Position numbers and translations under genes: made by a program | Notes under the pieces: generated by a model | What the model was told of the DNA's origin: nothing | Seen by the model: only the letters and a program-made list of their open reading frames with translations | Database searches by the model: none | Assembly: GCA_030647905.1 (NCBI GenBank) | Contig: JAUSJA010000025.1 | Span: forward strand, 62,001 to 126,000 | Direction of reading: 5' to 3' | DNA: 64,000 nt | From: Gemmatimonadaceae bacterium | GTDB lineage: Bacteria > Gemmatimonadota > Gemmatimonadetes > Gemmatimonadales > Gemmatimonadaceae | In this document: piece by piece, positions 35,277-45,310 of the stretch | Position numbering within the stretch: position 1 is the stretch's first letter | Layout of the letters: each line of letters begins with the position of its first letter

Positions 35277-36302
35277 GTGAAAGCACTGGTGAAGGAATCC
35301 GCGGGGCCCGGCTTCGTGATGCGCGACGTGCCCGAGCCGCGAATAAGAGACGATGAAGTTCTAATTCGCGTTCGCCGCGCCGGAGTGTGCGGCACCGACG
35401 TGCACATCTACGACTGGGACGACTGGGCGAAGGGACGCTGCAAGCCGCCGTTCGTCGTCGGACACGAATTCGCTGGAGACGTAGTCGCGGTGGGACGTCT
35501 CGTGACCGACGTGAACGAGGGCGACCGCGTGACCGCCGAGGGCCACATCGTGGATGGCCGCTGTCTTCTGTGCCGCACGGGCAACGCTCACGTATGCCCG
35601 CACACGAAGATCATCGGCGTGGATCGCGACGGCTGCTTCGCCGAGTACATCGCGATGCCCGCCACAAACGTATGGCACCTCGATGACGCCATCAGTTACG
35701 ACATCGGCGGCATCCACGATCCCATGGGCAACGCGTTCCACACTGCACTGACCGCGGATATCCCAGGCGCAACGGTGCTCATCACCGGATGTGGCCCGAT
35801 CGGCATTTTCGCGGTGGGAATCTGCCGCGCGGCCGGCGCGTCCCGCGTGATAGCTTCCGACGTAAACCCGAAGCGGCTCGAGCTGGCGAAGGCGATGGGC
35901 GCGCACGATGTCGTCACGCCGCAACAGGCGGAGGCGGTGGTGAAGGCCCACACCGACGGGCTTGGCGTTGATGTCGTGCTCGAGATGTCCGGCGCGCCCG
36001 CGGCGATACATCAGGCGCTTGCGCTGGTGCGCGTCGGCGGCCGGGTGCAGATGCTCGGAATACCGTCGAAGCCGATCGAGCTGGACCTGCCGAAGGAAGT
36101 GATCTTCAAAGGCATCACTATCTACGGAGTGGTCGGTCGCCGCATGTACGACACATGGCATCAGATGACCCGCTTCCTGCGCGCCGGCGAGTTCGACCCG
36201 GCACCGGTGATCACGCACCGGTTCCCGATGTCCGAGGCAGACGCCGCCATCCAGGCGATCAAGTCGGGCGACGCGGGCAAGGTCATCTTCGAAATCGCAT
36301 AA
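35277..36302 (+). CDS. tdh: L-threonine 3-dehydrogenase
   Basis: 341 residues, zinc-dependent medium-chain dehydrogenase. It oxidises threonine to 2-amino-3-oxobutyrate with NAD. Markers: GVCGTDVHIYDWDDWAKG (catalytic zinc Cys, and the Tdh-type WDDW), VVGHEFAGDVVAVG, four structural Cys in CLLCRTGNAHVCPHTK, and the cofactor loop VLITGCGPIGIFAVGICRAAGA. GTG 35277 is followed 10 bases after the stop by kbl, the next enzyme. Confidence 0.96.
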   Translation: MKALVKESAGPGFVMRDVPEPRIRDDEVLIRVRRAGVCGTDVHIYDWDDWAKGRCKPPFVVGHEFAGDVVAVGRLVTDVNEGDRVTAEGHIVDGRCLLCRTGNAHVCPHTKIIGVDRDGCFAEYIAMPATNVWHLDDAISYDIGGIHDPMGNAFHTALTADIPGATVLITGCGPIGIFAVGICRAAGASRVIASDVNPKRLELAKAMGAHDVVTPQQAEAVVKAHTDGLGVDVVLEMSGAPAAIHQALALVRVGGRVQMLGIPSKPIELDLPKEVIFKGITIYGVVGRRMYDTWHQMTRFLRAGEFDPAPVITHRFPMSEADAAIQAIKSGDAGKVIFEIA

Positions 36303-36312
36303 GGGGAAAGTC

Positions 36313-37518
36313 GTGGCACTGAACAGAAGATTCGACGACGAGCTGAAGGCGGGCATCGGGCAGCTCAAGACCGACCGCGTGTACAAGCGCCTCAACTATC
36401 TCGATTCGCCGCAGTCCGCCCGCGTGAAGATGGAAGGACACGGAGAAGTCCTCATCTTCTCGTCGAACAATTATCTGGGTCTCTGTGACGAGCCGTCGGT
36501 GATACGGGCGGGGGTCGAAGGACTCGAGCGTTACGGCGCCGGCACTGGAAGCGTGCGCTTCATCTGCGGGACGTTCACGATTCACCGCGAACTGGAGAGT
36601 GCGATCGCCGCTCTCGTCGGCACCGAGGCGTCGCTTTCATACGTCTCGGCGTGGAACGCCAACGAAGGCCTTACCGCGTCAATTGTCGAGCAGGGTGACT
36701 TCGTCGTCTCCGACGCGCTGAACCACGCGTCCATCATTGACTCGCTCCGTCTCGCCAAGGCCATCACCAGGTGCACGACGGGAGTCTATGCGCACTCGGA
36801 CATGGCCGACCTCACCGCAAAGCTGGAGAGCGCGCGCGACGCCAGGCGGCGAGTCGTATGGACCGACGGCGTGTTCTCGATGGAGGGGAGCATTGCGAAC
36901 CTTCCGGATATTCTGGAGATCGCGCGCAAGCACGACGCGATCGTGGTGATGGACGACTCGCACGCGACGGGCGTGCTTGGCAAGCACGGGCGCGGCACGG
37001 CCGAGCATTACGGAGTGGTGGGCGAGGTGGATGTGATCACGTCAACGCTTGGCAAGGCGTTGGGCGGAGCTGCCGGTGGATTCGTGGCGGGACCGGCGTC
37101 GCTCTGCGACATGCTGACGCAAAGGTCGCGACCACAATTGTTTTCCAATGCGCTCCCGCCGACCGTCGCGGCAAGTGCGCTCGCGTCCATCGAGTTCCTG
37201 AACGCGCACCCCCAGCGCGTAAGGAAACTCAGGGAGAACACCAACTACTTCCGCGAGCAGATCACGGAAGCGGGGTTCAAACCTCTGCCCGGGGAGACCC
37301 CGATCATTCCCATAATCGTCGGAGAGACGGCCACCGCCATCCGCATGAGTGACATGTTGCTGGAGGAAGGCGTCTTTGTTACGGGATTCGGGTTTCCGGT
37401 GGTCCCGCACGGCCAGGCGCGCGTCCGTTGCCAGCTGAGTGCGGCCCATTCGAGCGACGACATTGACGAGGCGATTGCCGCGTTCAGGAGCGTCGGAGGG
37501 AAGCTCGGAATAATCTGA
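36313..37518 (+). CDS. kbl: 2-amino-3-ketobutyrate CoA ligase (glycine C-acetyltransferase)
   Basis: 401 residues, PLP enzyme of the alpha-oxoamine synthase family. It splits 2-amino-3-oxobutyrate with CoA into glycine and acetyl-CoA. Markers: NNYLGLCDEPSVI, FICGTFTIHRELE, MDDSHATGVLG (PLP-contacting Asp and His), and the PLP Lys in TSTLGKALGGAAGGF. GTG start with AAGGGG 7 bases upstream. With tdh it forms the threonine-to-glycine route. Confidence 0.96.
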   Translation: MALNRRFDDELKAGIGQLKTDRVYKRLNYLDSPQSARVKMEGHGEVLIFSSNNYLGLCDEPSVIRAGVEGLERYGAGTGSVRFICGTFTIHRELESAIAALVGTEASLSYVSAWNANEGLTASIVEQGDFVVSDALNHASIIDSLRLAKAITRCTTGVYAHSDMADLTAKLESARDARRRVVWTDGVFSMEGSIANLPDILEIARKHDAIVVMDDSHATGVLGKHGRGTAEHYGVVGEVDVITSTLGKALGGAAGGFVAGPASLCDMLTQRSRPQLFSNALPPTVAASALASIEFLNAHPQRVRKLRENTNYFREQITEAGFKPLPGETPIIPIIVGETATAIRMSDMLLEEGVFVTGFGFPVVPHGQARVRCQLSAAHSSDDIDEAIAAFRSVGGKLGII

Positions 37519-38884: not shown

Positions 38885-38895
38885 GGGAATCGAGA

Positions 38896-38924
38896 AAACC
38901 CCGCGCGGGATTCGCGCGGGGTTT
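38896..38924 (-). terminator. Strong hairpin between the NYN-LOTUS gene and the DNA glycosylase gene
   Basis: 12-bp stem AAACCCCGCGCG/CGCGCGGGGTTT with a 5-base loop. On the minus strand it is followed by a short T-run. It may terminate or attenuate transcription into the glycosylase gene. Confidence 0.75.
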
Positions 38925-38937
38925 CTCCATTCTGCTG

Positions 38938-40812
38938 CTAGGTATCCGAAGAGCCCGCGGCCGACTTCGCCGCGGTCTTCTTGCGTGCGGTGCGCGCGCG
39001 CTTTACGGGGGCGGCAGCTTCGCCGCTGGTCTTCGTGTGCCCCGCTGTCGCCTTCGCGGACGGCTGCTTCGCCGCTGCTGCCTTCTTCGCAGCGCCTGCG
39101 CGCTTGCGAACGGGACGGCCGGTTTTCGCCGTTGATGGCGTCGAAGCCTCTTCGACGATCGCGACTGCTTCGGCGTCCGCTGCAGGCTTGGCCGTGTTGG
39201 TCGGAGCGGCAGTCGGAGCGGGCGCTGATGGAGCGACGACCCTCGGACCGACTACACCGACATCGAGCAGATTCGCCGGAGGGCCCGCCTTGGCACCCAT
39301 CAGTCCGCGACCGCTTCCACGAGCACCCATTCCGCGAGGAGCAGGAACGAAGGGTTTCGGCGCCGGAGCGTTGGCGGTTGCCGCCGCCTCGAGTTGTAGC
39401 TCGACGGTCGGTGCGGCAACCGACGCGGCAACTTCGTAGTCGGCGCCTCTGCGGCGGAGATCCACCACATCGGCGTCATGCGCATCGTGAAGAATGCGCA
39501 GGAAGTTGCGCTCGCTCAGGCTTTCGCTGTCGCGACCGAGAAGCGATCTCGCCGCGCTGCGAACCTTCGCCGCTGGTGCGACCTTGTCGCCGGTTGCCGC
39601 CGAAGCGACGGCGCGGCGCACGAGATCGAACGCCTCATCGCGCGTAAGACGAAGACCGCTGGCACCGATCCCATCGGCAGCGACGGCTGGCGCCGCACGC
39701 CTGGCTGCCGGCTGCGGAGCAGGCGCGGCCGTACGCAACTTGGGCTCGGCTGCCGCGACGGTCTCCTGCGGAGCTGCCGGAGCCGCGGCCGCATCGGGTT
39801 TCGTCTCCCGCGATCCGCGATCCTCACGACCGCGTCCGCGTCCACCACGACGCCCGCGACGGGCACGATCCTGATCATCGCCTTCCTCGGCGGCGGGAGC
39901 GGCAGCAGCCACTCCCGATGCTGCAGGCGCGGCGGGAGTGCCCTGTCCGGCCGGAAGACCACTTGAGCCGGCACGCGGAACGTCAACCTCGAGCTGTCCA
40001 TTCTCGAGCTTGGTGACCGTGAGGAGTCCACGCTTCGCCGCCTCGGAGACAAACAGGGAAAACTTTGCCTTGCCGACGTTCTTCTCGTCGAACGAGCTGT
40101 CTATTTGCTGCATCACCTGCTTGAGGCGATCGGCGCGCATGACGTCGCCGTTGCGCTTCATGCGCTGAACGGCTTCGCTGACGAGCTCCCAGGGATCGTG
40201 CTTGACCACTTCCTCCTCGCCCGACCTCACGAGTCCGGCCAGCGCGGTGTACGAGTAGTACTCATCGCAGTTCATCACCAGCAGATCGCTCGACGACTCG
40301 CGGATGCCGACGCCGATGACGTACTTGCCGTATTCCTTGAGCTTGATGACGAGGCTCGAGAAGTCGGAGTCGCCGGAGAGAAGGATGAATGTCCCGATCT
40401 CGGGGCGGACGAAGACGAGCTCGAGGGCGTCTATGGCGAGACGGATGTCCGTGGCGTTCTTCTTCGCCGAGCCGTACGCCGGGGCCATGATCATGTCTAT
40501 GGAGGACTCGGCGAGCGGCACGATGTATTGCGGATATCGGCGCCAGTCCGCGTACGCCCGCTGGACGGAGACCTTGCCCTTGATGATGTCCGAGGCGAGG
40601 AGATTCTTCAGCTCCGTCTGGAGGTCGGAGCGGATTCCCATCGTTACGTTATCGAAGTCGATGAGAAGCGCGGCGTTGGGCGCGTGGTGAATCTGTTGGG
40701 TTACCTGGTGCGTTCCTGAAACTGACTGGGATACTGCCTGAGGCCCGCGATGAATCGGGGCGATCGGACGGCGCGGCCCAGGCGGCGCGATCCGGGAAGG
40801 ACGAAATGACAT
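38938..40812 (-). CDS. NYN-domain (PIN-like) protein with two LOTUS domains, RG linker and H1-like tail
   Basis: 624 residues. NYN domain at about 46-190 with the acidic metal site readable: Asp52 and Asp54 (LIDFDN), Asp122 (NATDIRLAID), and Asp148/Asp150 (LSGDSDF). A LOTUS/OST-HTH domain follows at about 205-280. Next is an Arg-Gly-rich linker (RRGRRGGRGRGRE, 318-330), a second LOTUS-like domain at about 388-465, a Pro/Ala stretch, and a Lys/Ala/Arg-rich tail (565-618) like histone H1. It is likely an RNA-binding and possibly RNA-cutting protein. No close named homologue is claimed. Confidence 0.85.
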   Translation of the reverse strand: MSFRPSRIAPPGPRRPIAPIHRGPQAVSQSVSGTHQVTQQIHHAPNAALLIDFDNVTMGIRSDLQTELKNLLASDIIKGKVSVQRAYADWRRYPQYIVPLAESSIDMIMAPAYGSAKKNATDIRLAIDALELVFVRPEIGTFILLSGDSDFSSLVIKLKEYGKYVIGVGIRESSSDLLVMNCDEYYSYTALAGLVRSGEEEVVKHDPWELVSEAVQRMKRNGDVMRADRLKQVMQQIDSSFDEKNVGKAKFSLFVSEAAKRGLLTVTKLENGQLEVDVPRAGSSGLPAGQGTPAAPAASGVAAAAPAAEEGDDQDRARRGRRGGRGRGREDRGSRETKPDAAAAPAAPQETVAAAEPKLRTAAPAPQPAARRAAPAVAADGIGASGLRLTRDEAFDLVRRAVASAATGDKVAPAAKVRSAARSLLGRDSESLSERNFLRILHDAHDADVVDLRRRGADYEVAASVAAPTVELQLEAAATANAPAPKPFVPAPRGMGARGSGRGLMGAKAGPPANLLDVGVVGPRVVAPSAPAPTAAPTNTAKPAADAEAVAIVEEASTPSTAKTGRPVRKRAGAAKKAAAAKQPSAKATAGHTKTSGEAAAPVKRARTARKKTAAKSAAGSSDT

Positions 40813-41010: not shown

Positions 41011-42252
41011 ATGAAGCAACTCCGGTACCGTACGCGACTCATCGTCATCCTGTCGCTTTTTGCGATCGTGCCCGCCGCCCTGCTCACGATTCTATGGAGT
41101 GGAACGGTGAGCAGCGCGATCTCCCTGGTCGGCGGGCGCGGGGCATGGGAAAGCGTCGCGGCAAGCGGGCAGCGGGCGATCGCGGCGGTGCGCACGGCGC
41201 CGCTGACGCCTGCGCAACGTCAGCTCGTGGACGTTCATCAGCGTGAGCTGAACGCGTCGCTGGAGCAAGCCCGCCGGTACAGCTTCCTCGCGGGACGGTC
41301 GGTGAGAATAGTAGTGGTCATCGGTCTCATCGCGCTTGTTGCCTTCGGATTCGCGGCGACTCGCGCGGCCGGCCACCTGAGTCGGCAGATGGGCCGCCCA
41401 TTGGATGAGATCGTGGGATGGACAGCCCGCATCGGTCGAGGCGAGCCGCTCCCCCCGCGAGAGGCGAAAGTGGCGCGCGGCGCTCCCGAGTTCGCGACGC
41501 TTCGCGAGCGCATGCGCGACATGTCCGCGGCGATCGATGCCGGCCGGAAGCGCGCTGCGGAGGCGGAGCGACTCAAGGCGTATCGCGAAAGCGCGCGGCG
41601 CGTCGCGCACGAACTCAAGAATCTGCTCACTCCGATCCGGTTCGCTATGGACCGACTGCGCCGCGATGCGCCGTCGGAGTTGCACGAGACCGTGGAGGTG
41701 CTCGCCATCGAATCGAAGCGACTCGAGCGCATCGCGCGCGCGTTCGCCGAGTTCGGAAGACTTCCAGACGGCCCGTCGGCGGAAGTGGATATCGCCGAGC
41801 TGGTGCGGTACTCCGCTGCGTCGGCCGTCCCTCCGGGGATCGACGTGGAGGTGAACGCCGACGACAACCTGCCGCGCGTGATGGGACATCACGACGCTCT
41901 CGCCGCGGCGCTTTCCAATGTGATTCTCAATGCAGTGGACACGTGCGACGGAAGTGGACGCATCGTCGTCGGTGCGACGAATGCCATGCTTGACGGAAGG
42001 CCGGCGGTGCGGATCGAGGTGAGCGACGACGGTGCCGGCATCGCGCCCGATGACCTCGAGCGCATATGGGACCCCTACGTGACGCACAAGCCGGGTGGCA
42101 CGGGCCTGGGGCTCGCGATTGCGCGACAGGCCGTCCTCGCCCATGATGGAACCGTCGAGGCCTCGAGTACGTTGGGAGAGGGTACGCGGATACGATTCAT
42201 CCTTCCAGCGATGGCCGGATCAGACAACGGGAGTTCGCAAAATGGGTCCTGA
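41011..42252 (+). CDS. Sensor histidine kinase, NtrY-like
   Basis: 413 residues. Membrane segments at about 9-29 and 97-117 enclose a short periplasmic loop, followed by a HAMP-like region, an H-box with His200 (RRVAHELKNLLTPIR) and an ATPase domain (NVILNAVDTC, VSDDGAGIAPDDLERI, GGTGLGLAIARQ). The ELKNLLTPI form of the H-box is typical of NtrY-like kinases. It would phosphorylate the sigma54 activator encoded two genes downstream. Its end overlaps the small membrane protein gene by 11 bases. Confidence 0.92.
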   Translation: MKQLRYRTRLIVILSLFAIVPAALLTILWSGTVSSAISLVGGRGAWESVAASGQRAIAAVRTAPLTPAQRQLVDVHQRELNASLEQARRYSFLAGRSVRIVVVIGLIALVAFGFAATRAAGHLSRQMGRPLDEIVGWTARIGRGEPLPPREAKVARGAPEFATLRERMRDMSAAIDAGRKRAAEAERLKAYRESARRVAHELKNLLTPIRFAMDRLRRDAPSELHETVEVLAIESKRLERIARAFAEFGRLPDGPSAEVDIAELVRYSAASAVPPGIDVEVNADDNLPRVMGHHDALAAALSNVILNAVDTCDGSGRIVVGATNAMLDGRPAVRIEVSDDGAGIAPDDLERIWDPYVTHKPGGTGLGLAIARQAVLAHDGTVEASSTLGEGTRIRFILPAMAGSDNGSSQNGS

Positions 42253-42541
42253 GATCCTCGTTCCTCTTGGTGGCATGACGATGGTGGTTGCGATCGTCGT
42301 CGGGCGTCCGATGGTGATGGCCTGGGCGAAGAAGATCGAGAACGAATCCAGGCGCCCGCCATTGCCGCCGGAGGTTCTCACCCGCCTCGAGCGCATGGAG
42401 CAATCCATAGACGCGATCGCCGTCGAGGTCGAGCGCATCTCCGAGGGCCAGAGGTTCACGACGAAGCTCCTGTCCGAAGTGCACGACGCGCCCGCCGCGT
42501 TGCCGGCGAAGGCATCGTCTTCGAGTCCGGCGACGCCGTAG
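42242..42541 (+). CDS. 99-residue single-pass membrane protein with coiled coil
   Basis: ATG 42242 lies within the 3' end of the kinase gene, with GGGAG about 9 bases upstream. Residues 4-26 are hydrophobic (ILVPLGGMTMVVAIVVG). A charged helix then reads WAKKIENESRRPPLPPEVLTRL and a coiled-coil ERMEQSIDAIAVEVERISEGQ, followed by an Ala/Ser-rich tail. It lies between the kinase and its regulator, so it may be an accessory of the sensor. The family is not known to me. Confidence 0.7.
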   Translation: MGPEILVPLGGMTMVVAIVVGRPMVMAWAKKIENESRRPPLPPEVLTRLERMEQSIDAIAVEVERISEGQRFTTKLLSEVHDAPAALPAKASSSSPATP

Positions 42542-42542
42542 C

Positions 42543-43943
42543 GTGGCGACCGTCCTGATCGTTGACGACGAGCCCAATATCCGTCGCATGGTCGGGGCGC
42601 TACTCACGGCCGAAGGATACGAGGTTCGCGAAGCGGCAAGCGGCGCGCAGGGGATCGCGAAGGCGGAGGAAGATGAGCCGGACGCGGTACTGCTCGATCT
42701 GATGATGCCGGGCGAGATGGACGGAATGGCGACGCTGACAAAGCTTCGCATCGCGCACCCTGACCTCGCCGTGATCATGATGAGCGGACGCGCGGGACTG
42801 AGCGATGCGGTGAACGCGACCAAGCTCGGCGCCGTGAACTTTCTCGAGAAGCCGCTCACTCCTGAAGGAGTGTTGTTCGCCATCGGCTCCGCGCTCGAGC
42901 TTCGTCAATCCCGACGCGTCGCGCGCGAGCTGCGCGAGGAGCTCGGTCTCGCCGGCGACATGGTCGGCAACAGTCCGCAGATGAACGCCGTGCGCGAGCT
43001 GATCGAGCGCGTCGCAGCGAGTGACGCGCGGGTGCTGATCACCGGCGAATCGGGCACCGGGAAGGAGCTGGTGGCGAGCGCGATTCACGACGCGAGCACC
43101 CGGCGCGACAAGCCGTTCGTAAGAGTCAACTGCGCGGCGATCCCGCGCGATCTCGTGGAGAGCGAGATGTTCGGCCACGAGCGTGGCGCTTTCACGGGGG
43201 CGACCCAGGCGAGGATAGGACGATTCGAGCTGGCCCACATGGGGACGCTCTTTCTCGACGAGATCGGGGATCTCAGTCTCGATGCGCAAGCCAAGCTGCT
43301 GCGCGCGATCGAGGCGAAGGAGATCCTCCGCGTGGGCGGAAGCCGCAGCATCCGCGTGGACGTCAGAATCATCGCGGCGACGAACCATGACCTGGCGCGC
43401 GCGGTGCGCGAGGGCGCGTTTCGCGAAGATCTGTTCTTCCGGATCAACGTGATTCCGATCGCGCTGCCGCCGCTCCGCGACCGTGAGGGCGACGTCGCCC
43501 AGCTCGTGCGCCACTTCTCTCTGCTCCACTTCAAGCGCACGGGACAGATTCCGCCGACATGGACTCAGGGCGCCATGGAGGTCATGGAGCGACACACATG
43601 GCCGGGCAACGTGCGCGAGCTGGCCAACATCGTGGAGCGCATCGCGATCGTGAGTCCCGCCGCAGACGTCACCGCGGCCTCCGTCGGCGCGATCCTGAAT
43701 CCCGCCGACGCCCGCCTCGCCAGATCGCTGCAAACTGTCGTGGAGTCCGTGCATGCGGGGACGGAGACCGGCAGCCTCAGCGATTTCCTCGATGATTTCG
43801 AGAGACGCCTGATCGAGCAGGCCCTTGCCGCTGCCGACGGCAACATTGCCGAAGCGGCGAGGTCACTGAGGACCGATCGCCCGAACCTGTATCGGCGGAT
43901 GAAGAGGCTCGGTATTGGCGGCACGCACGCGATGAATCAGTGA
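42543..43943 (+). CDS. NtrC-family sigma54-dependent response regulator
   Basis: 466 residues. Receiver domain with phosphoacceptor Asp52 (AVLLDLMMPG) and Lys103, AAA+ domain with Walker A GESGTGKE (168-175) and the sigma54 contact loop GAFTGA (215-220), and a C-terminal Fis-type helix-turn-helix (NIAEAARSLRTDRPNLYRRM). It activates sigma54 promoters when phosphorylated. GTG 42543 follows the previous stop by 1 base. No sigma54 promoter was searched for in detail. Confidence 0.94.
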   Translation: MATVLIVDDEPNIRRMVGALLTAEGYEVREAASGAQGIAKAEEDEPDAVLLDLMMPGEMDGMATLTKLRIAHPDLAVIMMSGRAGLSDAVNATKLGAVNFLEKPLTPEGVLFAIGSALELRQSRRVARELREELGLAGDMVGNSPQMNAVRELIERVAASDARVLITGESGTGKELVASAIHDASTRRDKPFVRVNCAAIPRDLVESEMFGHERGAFTGATQARIGRFELAHMGTLFLDEIGDLSLDAQAKLLRAIEAKEILRVGGSRSIRVDVRIIAATNHDLARAVREGAFREDLFFRINVIPIALPPLRDREGDVAQLVRHFSLLHFKRTGQIPPTWTQGAMEVMERHTWPGNVRELANIVERIAIVSPAADVTAASVGAILNPADARLARSLQTVVESVHAGTETGSLSDFLDDFERRLIEQALAAADGNIAEAARSLRTDRPNLYRRMKRLGIGGTHAMNQ

Positions 43944-45310
43944 TGACGACTGGAAGACGTATTTCGCATGTTCTCGCCGCACTGCTGATCGGTGCCGGCA
44001 CGGCGACGGCGCAGCAAGCCGAGACGCCGCCGGACTCGACGGTTGATCTTGGCTCCCTTCTCTCCGGGCCGGACCGTGGCGGACTTACCGTAACTTCGGG
44101 CAGGACCTACAATCGCGTCGAGGGAATGCCGATACTCATCGGTCCCACCTACCGCAACCGGTTGGGACCGGCGACGCTCTCCATCGCCGCGCTGGGAATC
44201 ATCCGCACCGCGAACCGGCTGCATTGGGATGCGGAGAACATCGGACACCGCTTGTCGGCCGATGTCCGCGTCGGACGCCGGCGCGGCTACTCGGCCGGCG
44301 CTGAATCGTTCGATCTCGTCTCCAAGATCGAGCCGTGGCAGCTCAGCGAGCCGGACGCGGCGCTGGCGTCGTTCTTCTCCAAGCGCGACTACTTCGACTA
44401 CTTCGGGCGACATGGGGGGCGCATCTACGCGTCGGTGTTTGCCGATGCGAACGCGGCGGTGACGGCGGGATACAGCAGCGAGCGATGGAGCTCGAGGCGC
44501 GAGCGGGACGTGTTCACTCTCTTCCGCGGCGACGACGCATGGCGCATCAATCCGCGGATCAACGATGCTATGGTGCACGTCGCCGACCTGAGCCTTGAAC
44601 TCGACACGCGCAACAGCAAGCGCAATCCGTGGGCGGGGTGGTTCGTGAGCGCGCAGTACGAGCATGGCGCGGGCAATTTCGCGACGGCAGGCACGCGTCT
44701 CGAAGCATCGGTCGCACCGGGATTCAGGCGGCTCGAATACGGCCGGGCGTTTCTGGATCTGCGGCGGTACAATCGCATCTCGCCCAGGCGACAGCTCAAC
44801 ACGCGCCTCGTGCTCGGCGGATGGCTGCACGGAGATCCGCTCCCTCTCGAGCGAAGATTCTCTGTCGGCGGCATTGGCAATCTCCCCGGATTCGATTTCC
44901 GACGACTCGGAATCGGCACCGACGTCGGGCAATGCTCACCGGACTCGGGGCCGCTGCCCGGTCGCCCGGCGGAATGCGAGCGCGCAGCACTGGCGCAGAT
45001 CGAGTACAGGCACGAGCTCGTCTCCGAGCTGTTCGACGTGTTTAACCGGAACGGTATCCGCGTTCGCGGCGCCGTGTTCCGCGTGAAGCCGGCGGCGGTC
45101 GCATTCGCGGATGCGGGCCGCGGATGGCTCGTCGGTCCGCGGCGGGGAACGCTGCAATACCCGTCCGGCTCGGTTCCAGGCTTCGACACGTTCAGAACTG
45201 ACGTCGGTCTCGGCCTCGATCTCGGTATCGCGGGGATCTACGTGGCGAAGGCAGTCTCGGAATCGAAGGAGCCGGCGAACTTCTTCATCCGCATCCGCAA
45301 CCAATTCTAG
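43943..45310 (+). CDS. Omp85-family outer-membrane barrel without POTRA domains
   Basis: 455 residues from ATG 43943, overlapping the regulator stop (TGATG). A signal peptide (HVLAALLIGAGTATAQ) precedes a beta-barrel. The Omp85 hallmark is seen in the second half: LPLERRFSVGGIGNLPGFD, where most members have an RGF/RGY motif. The C-terminus IRIRNQF carries the terminal Phe used for barrel assembly. There is no room for a POTRA domain in the first 60 residues. It may be a pore or a protein export partner; the function is unknown. Confidence 0.78.
   Translation: MTTGRRISHVLAALLIGAGTATAQQAETPPDSTVDLGSLLSGPDRGGLTVTSGRTYNRVEGMPILIGPTYRNRLGPATLSIAALGIIRTANRLHWDAENIGHRLSADVRVGRRRGYSAGAESFDLVSKIEPWQLSEPDAALASFFSKRDYFDYFGRHGGRIYASVFADANAAVTAGYSSERWSSRRERDVFTLFRGDDAWRINPRINDAMVHVADLSLELDTRNSKRNPWAGWFVSAQYEHGAGNFATAGTRLEASVAPGFRRLEYGRAFLDLRRYNRISPRRQLNTRLVLGGWLHGDPLPLERRFSVGGIGNLPGFDFRRLGIGTDVGQCSPDSGPLPGRPAECERAALAQIEYRHELVSELFDVFNRNGIRVRGAVFRVKPAAVAFADAGRGWLVGPRRGTLQYPSGSVPGFDTFRTDVGLGLDLGIAGIYVAKAVSESKEPANFFIRIRNQF

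Follow-up and report, generated by a model that had tools for sequence, protein, structure and literature searches.

A class-wide Gemmatimonadota protein with an NYN nuclease domain and two LOTUS-type domains, a predicted endoribonuclease

Introduction

Proteins that join an NYN nuclease domain to LOTUS (OST-HTH) domains have been described in bacteria, plants, and mammals. Anantharaman, Zhang and Aravind (2010; PMC2848206) reported bacterial proteins with an NYN (DUF88/LK-nuclease) domain and single or duplicated OST-HTH domains, which were predicted to be standalone RNA-degrading enzymes. OST-HTH was proposed to be bacterial in origin and to have passed to eukaryotes as a nuclease-LOTUS fusion (PMC2848206). 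Here, we analyzed a stretch of 64,000 nucleotides (the window) from a Gemmatimonadaceae bacterium (assembly GCA_030647905.1, contig JAUSJA010000025.1, positions 62,001 to 126,000), which encodes a 624-amino-acid protein of this kind. The protein is probably an endoribonuclease of the NYN-OST-HTH (LK-nuclease) family that is specific for single strands, depends on Mn/Mg, and acts in mRNA turnover, an activity predicted from its domains.

The Gemmatimonadota protein shares with the bacterial proteins of 2010 an N-terminal NYN domain followed by one or two OST-HTH domains, with the same catalytic Asp residues. However, it is much longer, its second LOTUS domain (LOTUS2) is divergent, and it carries an RG box, a family-specific linear motif, and a Lys/Ala tail; its gene is near-universal in the class, whereas theirs are sporadic. 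Arabidopsis DNE1, with an NYN and two LOTUS domains, cuts mRNA near G-rich YGGWG (PMC10226599). It has the same order of NYN and then two LOTUS domains, a likeness of domain layout and not of sequence, but the plant protein is tied to DCP1 and decapping, which are absent from bacteria. Mammalian MARF1 (limkain b1; PMC6294520) is similar in its NYN fold (Z 11.9), its matching Asp residues, and its LOTUS domains. The C-terminal region of MARF1 recruits a partner, the decapping complex (PMC6294520), whereas a complex of this sort is absent from bacteria. MARF1 proper has RRM domains and many LOTUS domains; no Pfam RRM match was found in the Gemmatimonadota protein, which has two LOTUS-type domains. 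An earlier reading of the window, made from the sequence letters (hereafter, the original prediction), had compared the protein to MARF1-type proteins, and this was right in layout and fold, as judged by the Pfam NYN match and the structural match to the MARF1 NYN domain.

Two NYN proteins of Burkholderiales (Eleftheria terrae WP_301260509.1 and Caballeronia grimmiae WP_244798044.1) also have an NYN domain, one sub-threshold LOTUS match, and a basic Lys/Ala/Arg C-terminus, and the Eleftheria protein has an RG-rich linker as well. Their identity to the Gemmatimonadota protein is 32–36% over NYN-LOTUS1, and a second LOTUS domain and the PPxxLLxVGVV motif were not seen in them.

The claim that no function had been described for this combination is right only in part, as NYN with one or two LOTUS domains was published for bacteria in 2010 and DNE1 has the same order. 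In the literature searched, we found no paper naming both Gemmatimonas and the NYN domain and no characterised bacterial NYN-LOTUS protein. What is new is the class-wide core gene, the divergent LOTUS2, the conserved linear motif, and a C-terminal module that alternates between a helix-hairpin-helix (HhH) and a basic tail; the basic tail and the conserved short motif appear to be unstudied. A one-copy gene kept throughout almost a whole class is well suited to studies of what the ancestral nuclease-LOTUS protein does, and the motif and the alternating module are specific, testable parts.

Results

Distribution and domain organization

Among the 150 Gemmatimonadota genomes sampled, 140 contained one copy matching the NYN profile. 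The gene was absent from the six sampled genomes of the other Gemmatimonadota class, which had an unrelated NYN architecture instead. The gene is thus single-copy and nearly universal across this class. When public genomes were searched, the 80 best relatives came almost entirely from Gemmatimonadota. Below, f1 denotes orthologs of the window's own family, f2 the order-level family, f4 to f7 other families of the same class, and f9 the other class; residue conservation refers to an alignment of 60 orthologs unless another number is given.

The gene and the parts of its product are as follows.

38938..40812, (-) strand: NYN-LOTUS-RG-LOTUS-motif-tail protein, 624 amino acids, ATG start, single open frame
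40735..40761, (-) strand: basic N-terminal motif APIHRGPQA, residues 18–26, conserved in the 60 orthologs
40252..40674, (-) strand: NYN nuclease domain, residues 47–187, with catalytic D52, D122, and D148 and further Asp residues D54, D128, and D150 (Pfam NYN, fold, invariant Asp)
39973..40200, (-) strand: LOTUS1 (OST-HTH), residues 205–280 (Pfam in orthologs, structure model, fold match)
39814..39867, (-) strand: RG box, residues 316–333, RARRGRRGGRGRGREDRG, conserved in orthologs
39412..39651, (-) strand: LOTUS2, divergent OST-HTH, residues 388–467 (hhalign to class-level orthologs, structure model; Pfam negative)
39250..39336, (-) strand: linear motif RGMGARGSGRG...PPANLLDVGVV, residues 493–521, aligned in family orthologs
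38941..39129, (-) strand: basic tail rich in Lys, Ala, and Arg, residues 562–624, from composition and charge

The coordinates and strand given in the original prediction were exact. Its list of parts was largely sound, but their order needed correction: the RG box lies between LOTUS1 and LOTUS2, and the conserved linear motif separates LOTUS2 from the tail, which begins at about residue 562. M1 was kept in more than 90% of the orthologs. In the N-terminal motif, R22 and P24 were invariant, and H21, G23, and A26 were almost always kept. AlphaFold2 (AF2) predicted roughly half of the chain to be disordered.

NYN nuclease domain

Residues 47–187 matched Pfam NYN with an E-value of 3.5e-24 (86.4 bits against a cut-off of 24.2). 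All six Asp residues, D52, D54, D122, D128, D148, and D150, were invariant. When the alignment was widened to relatives from bacteria and phage records at 23–36% identity (one row being a fragment without the N-terminal part), the positions of D122, D128, D148, and D150 were invariant and that of D52 nearly so. Sequence alignment placed D52, D122, and D148 on D14, D92, and D115 of VPA0982, which correspond to D358, D426, and D452 of MARF1 and D13, D118, and D143 of the Bacteroides fragilis NYN protein (PMC11346440). The D13A substitution in the latter abolished RNA cutting (PMC11346440).

The NYN domain was modeled with low confidence in the first AF2 model because the alignment was too uniform. 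A model of residues 40–285, built from an alignment that included distant viral-contig relatives, had a mean predicted local distance difference test score (pLDDT) of 78 and a predicted template modeling score of 0.54. Its top structural matches were the NYN domains of mouse MARF1 (5yaa; Z 11.9 over 143 residues) and human MARF1 (6fdl; Z 11.2) and VPA0982 (2qip; Z 10.0), indicating the PIN-like fold of NYN ribonucleases. The NYN fold and visible Asp set of the original prediction are therefore sound as a prediction, and the domain is predicted to be a metal-dependent endonuclease for single-stranded RNA.

LOTUS domains

LOTUS1 is clearly a canonical-type LOTUS domain. Pfam OST-HTH matched LOTUS1 in 41 of 45 orthologous copies (best E-value 4.9e-7), while the copy in the window protein gave no Pfam match when searched alone. 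It was modeled with pLDDT mostly above 85, and its fold matched the LOTUS domain of TDRD7 (3rco; Z 8.7), CV_0373 (Z 7.6), and NE0665 (Z 7.5), the bacterial LOTUS structures being 2kzv and 2kpm. As other winged helices score Z 7–8 in the same match list, fold similarity alone is insufficient, and it is the profile match that settles the assignment. The first LOTUS domain of the original prediction is thereby borne out.

LOTUS2 gave no Pfam OST-HTH match in any of the 52 copies scanned (E-values up to 5), and a direct profile comparison of LOTUS1 with LOTUS2 reached a probability of only 23%. The case for this domain therefore rests on the class-level orthologs from other families, in which one protein contains two Pfam OST-HTH stretches. 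By hhalign, LOTUS2 of the window type matched their second OST-HTH with a probability of 98.3% (E-value 2.5e-14; 36% identity over 77 columns), and the residues in common include the AHDxxVxDLRR segment. Scored with the model built from the class-level domain, the second domain reached 80–118 bits in almost every f4–f7 ortholog sampled but 13–37 bits in f2; in the window's family the median was 23 bits, and the window copy scored 13. These graded scores indicate that LOTUS2 diverged in the order to which the window belongs. Despite this divergence, it is still conserved; it was lost in one genus-level group (L037-L039, L100, L101). A PDB sequence search with the LOTUS1 or LOTUS2 profiles returned nothing useful.

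AF2 modeled LOTUS2 as a confident winged helix (pLDDT 90–97). Its best structural matches were generic winged helices, including the origin recognition complex (ORC) and the globular domains of histones H1/H5 (Z 8–9 for H1/H5). Judging by profile comparison, LOTUS2 is a divergent but homologous LOTUS domain whose ligand may have changed. The original prediction named a hidden Markov model search that misses the second LOTUS domain as grounds for its refutation; the domain does fail such a search with Pfam but stands in the comparison with class-level orthologs and as a modeled winged helix.

Other LOTUS domains, including some from bacteria, have been reported to prefer G-quadruplex RNA, according to a passage in PMC12247748. 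Cleavage sites of DNE1 are G-rich without predicted quadruplexes (PMC10226599). Three G-quadruplex motifs were counted in the window, against a mean of 1.3 and a maximum of 4 in shuffled sequences; the NYN gene itself contained no such motif. By this count, the window does not suggest G-quadruplex targeting.

RG box, linear motif, and C-terminal modules

The RG-rich linker of the original prediction is present and conserved. R321 and G326 were invariant, R316, R318, R319, and R327 exceeded 90%, and the segment held two to eight RG pairs in every ortholog. The linear motif, with the consensus RGMGxRG...RGRG...PPPxLLxVGVV, could be aligned in each of the 67 orthologs of the family, 63 of which fit the strict pattern. 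It was retained in the group that lost LOTUS2, and weaker forms occurred in 7 of 17 f2 proteins. Its conservation within a disordered region is most simply explained by a docking site.

The last 60 residues of the window protein contain 10 Lys, 19 Ala, and 6 Arg with a net charge of +14, the sole such tail among the 56 open reading frames of the window. Among 67 orthologs, the net charge of this segment had a median of +13 and a range of +1 to +20, and the tail sequence was not conserved. In having a winged helix and then a tail rich in Lys and Ala, the protein recalls linker histone H1 and the H1-like proteins of bacteria. However, the winged-helix similarity of LOTUS2 to the H1/H5 globular domains is generic, and no Pfam linker-histone family matched the whole protein or the LOTUS2 copies. 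The tail's resemblance to histone H1 is, from its residues, compositional only. Of the original description as an H1-like, nucleic-acid compacting tail, the basic Lys/Ala tail stands, while compaction is unsupported beyond composition.

In f4–f7, the C-terminus is instead an HhH. HHH_5 was found in 16 of 17 copies (best E-value 1.5e-6, mostly under Pfam's own cut-off), and by profile the domain matched topoisomerase V, XPF, and RuvA. A simple HhH pattern was present in 20 of 22 f4–f7 sequences, 0 of 67 f1 sequences, and 0 of 17 f2 sequences. The basic tail takes its place in the f1 proteins and in 10 of 17 f2 proteins. In the simplest reading, both modules supply extra nucleic-acid binding.

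These parts bear on two other explanations. The protein could be a nuclease tethered to the nucleoid, held on DNA by its basic tail (or by the HhH of the sister families), whose targets are the RNA of R-loops or nascent transcripts, or which has a role in DNA repair. The likeness of the HhH to those of topoisomerase V, XPF, and RuvA is consistent with this, as are the DNA-binding winged helices, ORC and H1/H5 among them, matched by the LOTUS2 model. However, HhH domains can bind RNA too, winged-helix matches at Z 8–10 are generic, and LOTUS1 and the type of NYN domain indicate RNA. We consider this explanation unlikely. Even less probable is that the protein, much like the LOTUS proteins of germ granules, serves as a scaffold or in ribonucleoprotein bodies, mainly by multivalent RNA binding, with a nuclease that is regulated or of minor importance. 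The disordered half of the chain, the RG box with the basic tail, and the conserved linear motif would suit such a role, but the most conserved part of the protein is the NYN active site.

Gene neighbourhood

The best segment of the protein had a median identity of 83%, compared with 38–79% for neighbour genes found in at least 39 loci. In 74 of the 80 loci, a divergent sensor kinase gene lies beside the NYN gene, and a 3-methyladenine glycosylase gene lies downstream on the same strand in 55 of 80. The latter arrangement also favours the nucleoid-tethered nuclease, yet in the window the glycosylase gene, which is less conserved, is set off by a strong hairpin:

38892..38927, (-) strand: terminator-like hairpin directly after the NYN gene and before the 3-methyladenine glycosylase gene, a G+C-rich stem followed by UUUU

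The 66-nt stretch containing it had a folding energy of −35.6 kcal/mol (z −5.6). Functional linkage of the two genes is doubtful because the hairpin separates them.

An anti-phage or toxin-type conflict RNase was also considered, as NYN and OST-HTH proteins of other kinds are found in defence settings (PMC11346440, PMC8195603). This was already disfavoured and is very improbable: PADLOC gave no match, and the gene is single-copy and near-universal in the class, with a conserved neighbourhood that contains no defence genes.

Proposed function

The favoured endoribonuclease would use LOTUS1 and LOTUS2 to select RNA, while the RG box and basic tail would give a multivalent RNA grip of low specificity. 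The NYN domain would then cut single-stranded RNA nearby, and the PPxxLLxVGVV motif may dock a partner, a role comparable to that of the MARF1 C-terminal region. The mode of action of MARF1 (PMC6294520) and DNE1 (PMC10226599) points to metal-dependent endonucleolytic decay with LOTUS-guided selection as the most likely mechanism. Homologs of RNase E/G and RNase Y are encoded in the same genome; the protein would therefore act beside the usual decay enzymes, and replacement of RNase E or Y was rejected.

Several points weigh against this assignment. LOTUS2 lacks the canonical signature, including any Pfam match, and its closest folds are generic winged helices, some of them DNA-binding. HhH domains usually bind DNA, although they can also bind RNA. 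The neighbours, the 3-methyladenine glycosylase and the two-component pair, are not RNA-decay genes, and RNA target, partner, and activity are all predicted only.

A broader proposal, which we advance only tentatively and hold to be rather unlikely, is that the protein is a class-wide core RNA-decay hub of Gemmatimonadota, a bacterial counterpart of MARF1 and DNE1. LOTUS would pick the RNA, NYN would cut it, PPxxLLxVGVV would recruit a partner enzyme, and the C-terminal DNA- or RNA-binding module (HhH or Lys/Ala tail) would fix the location in the cell.

Other observations in the window and in related proteins

Only about 8 bases separate the hairpin at 38892–38927 from the start of the 3-methyladenine DNA glycosylase gene that follows it; such close spacing leaves transcription of the glycosylase gene in need of an explanation. 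At 41011–45310 lie divergent genes for an NtrB/NtrC-like pair, a sensor kinase with a sigma-54 response regulator, and after them a gene for an Omp85-type protein. At 35277–37518, a gene resembling zinc-type alcohol/threonine dehydrogenases precedes the glycine C-acetyltransferase gene (kbl); this pair is conserved near the NYN gene and is likely involved in threonine degradation.

A second, unrelated NYN protein is encoded in the same genome (L002, contig C17:1640-1918; a frame of about 264 amino acids) and has no LOTUS matches. The NYN protein of the other class (L133-L138, f9) is single-copy, about 410–435 amino acids long, with a long N-terminal region. It did not match the LOTUS models and was rejected as an ortholog. 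Several phage and viral scans returned no close relatives. L145 (MT835574.1), a record deposited as phage but possibly bacterial DNA, encodes NYN, a long insert, an RG-rich linker, and a C-terminal LOTUS domain. L144 (MT836735.1), from a gut phage-collection record, encodes NYN and two clear Pfam LOTUS domains.
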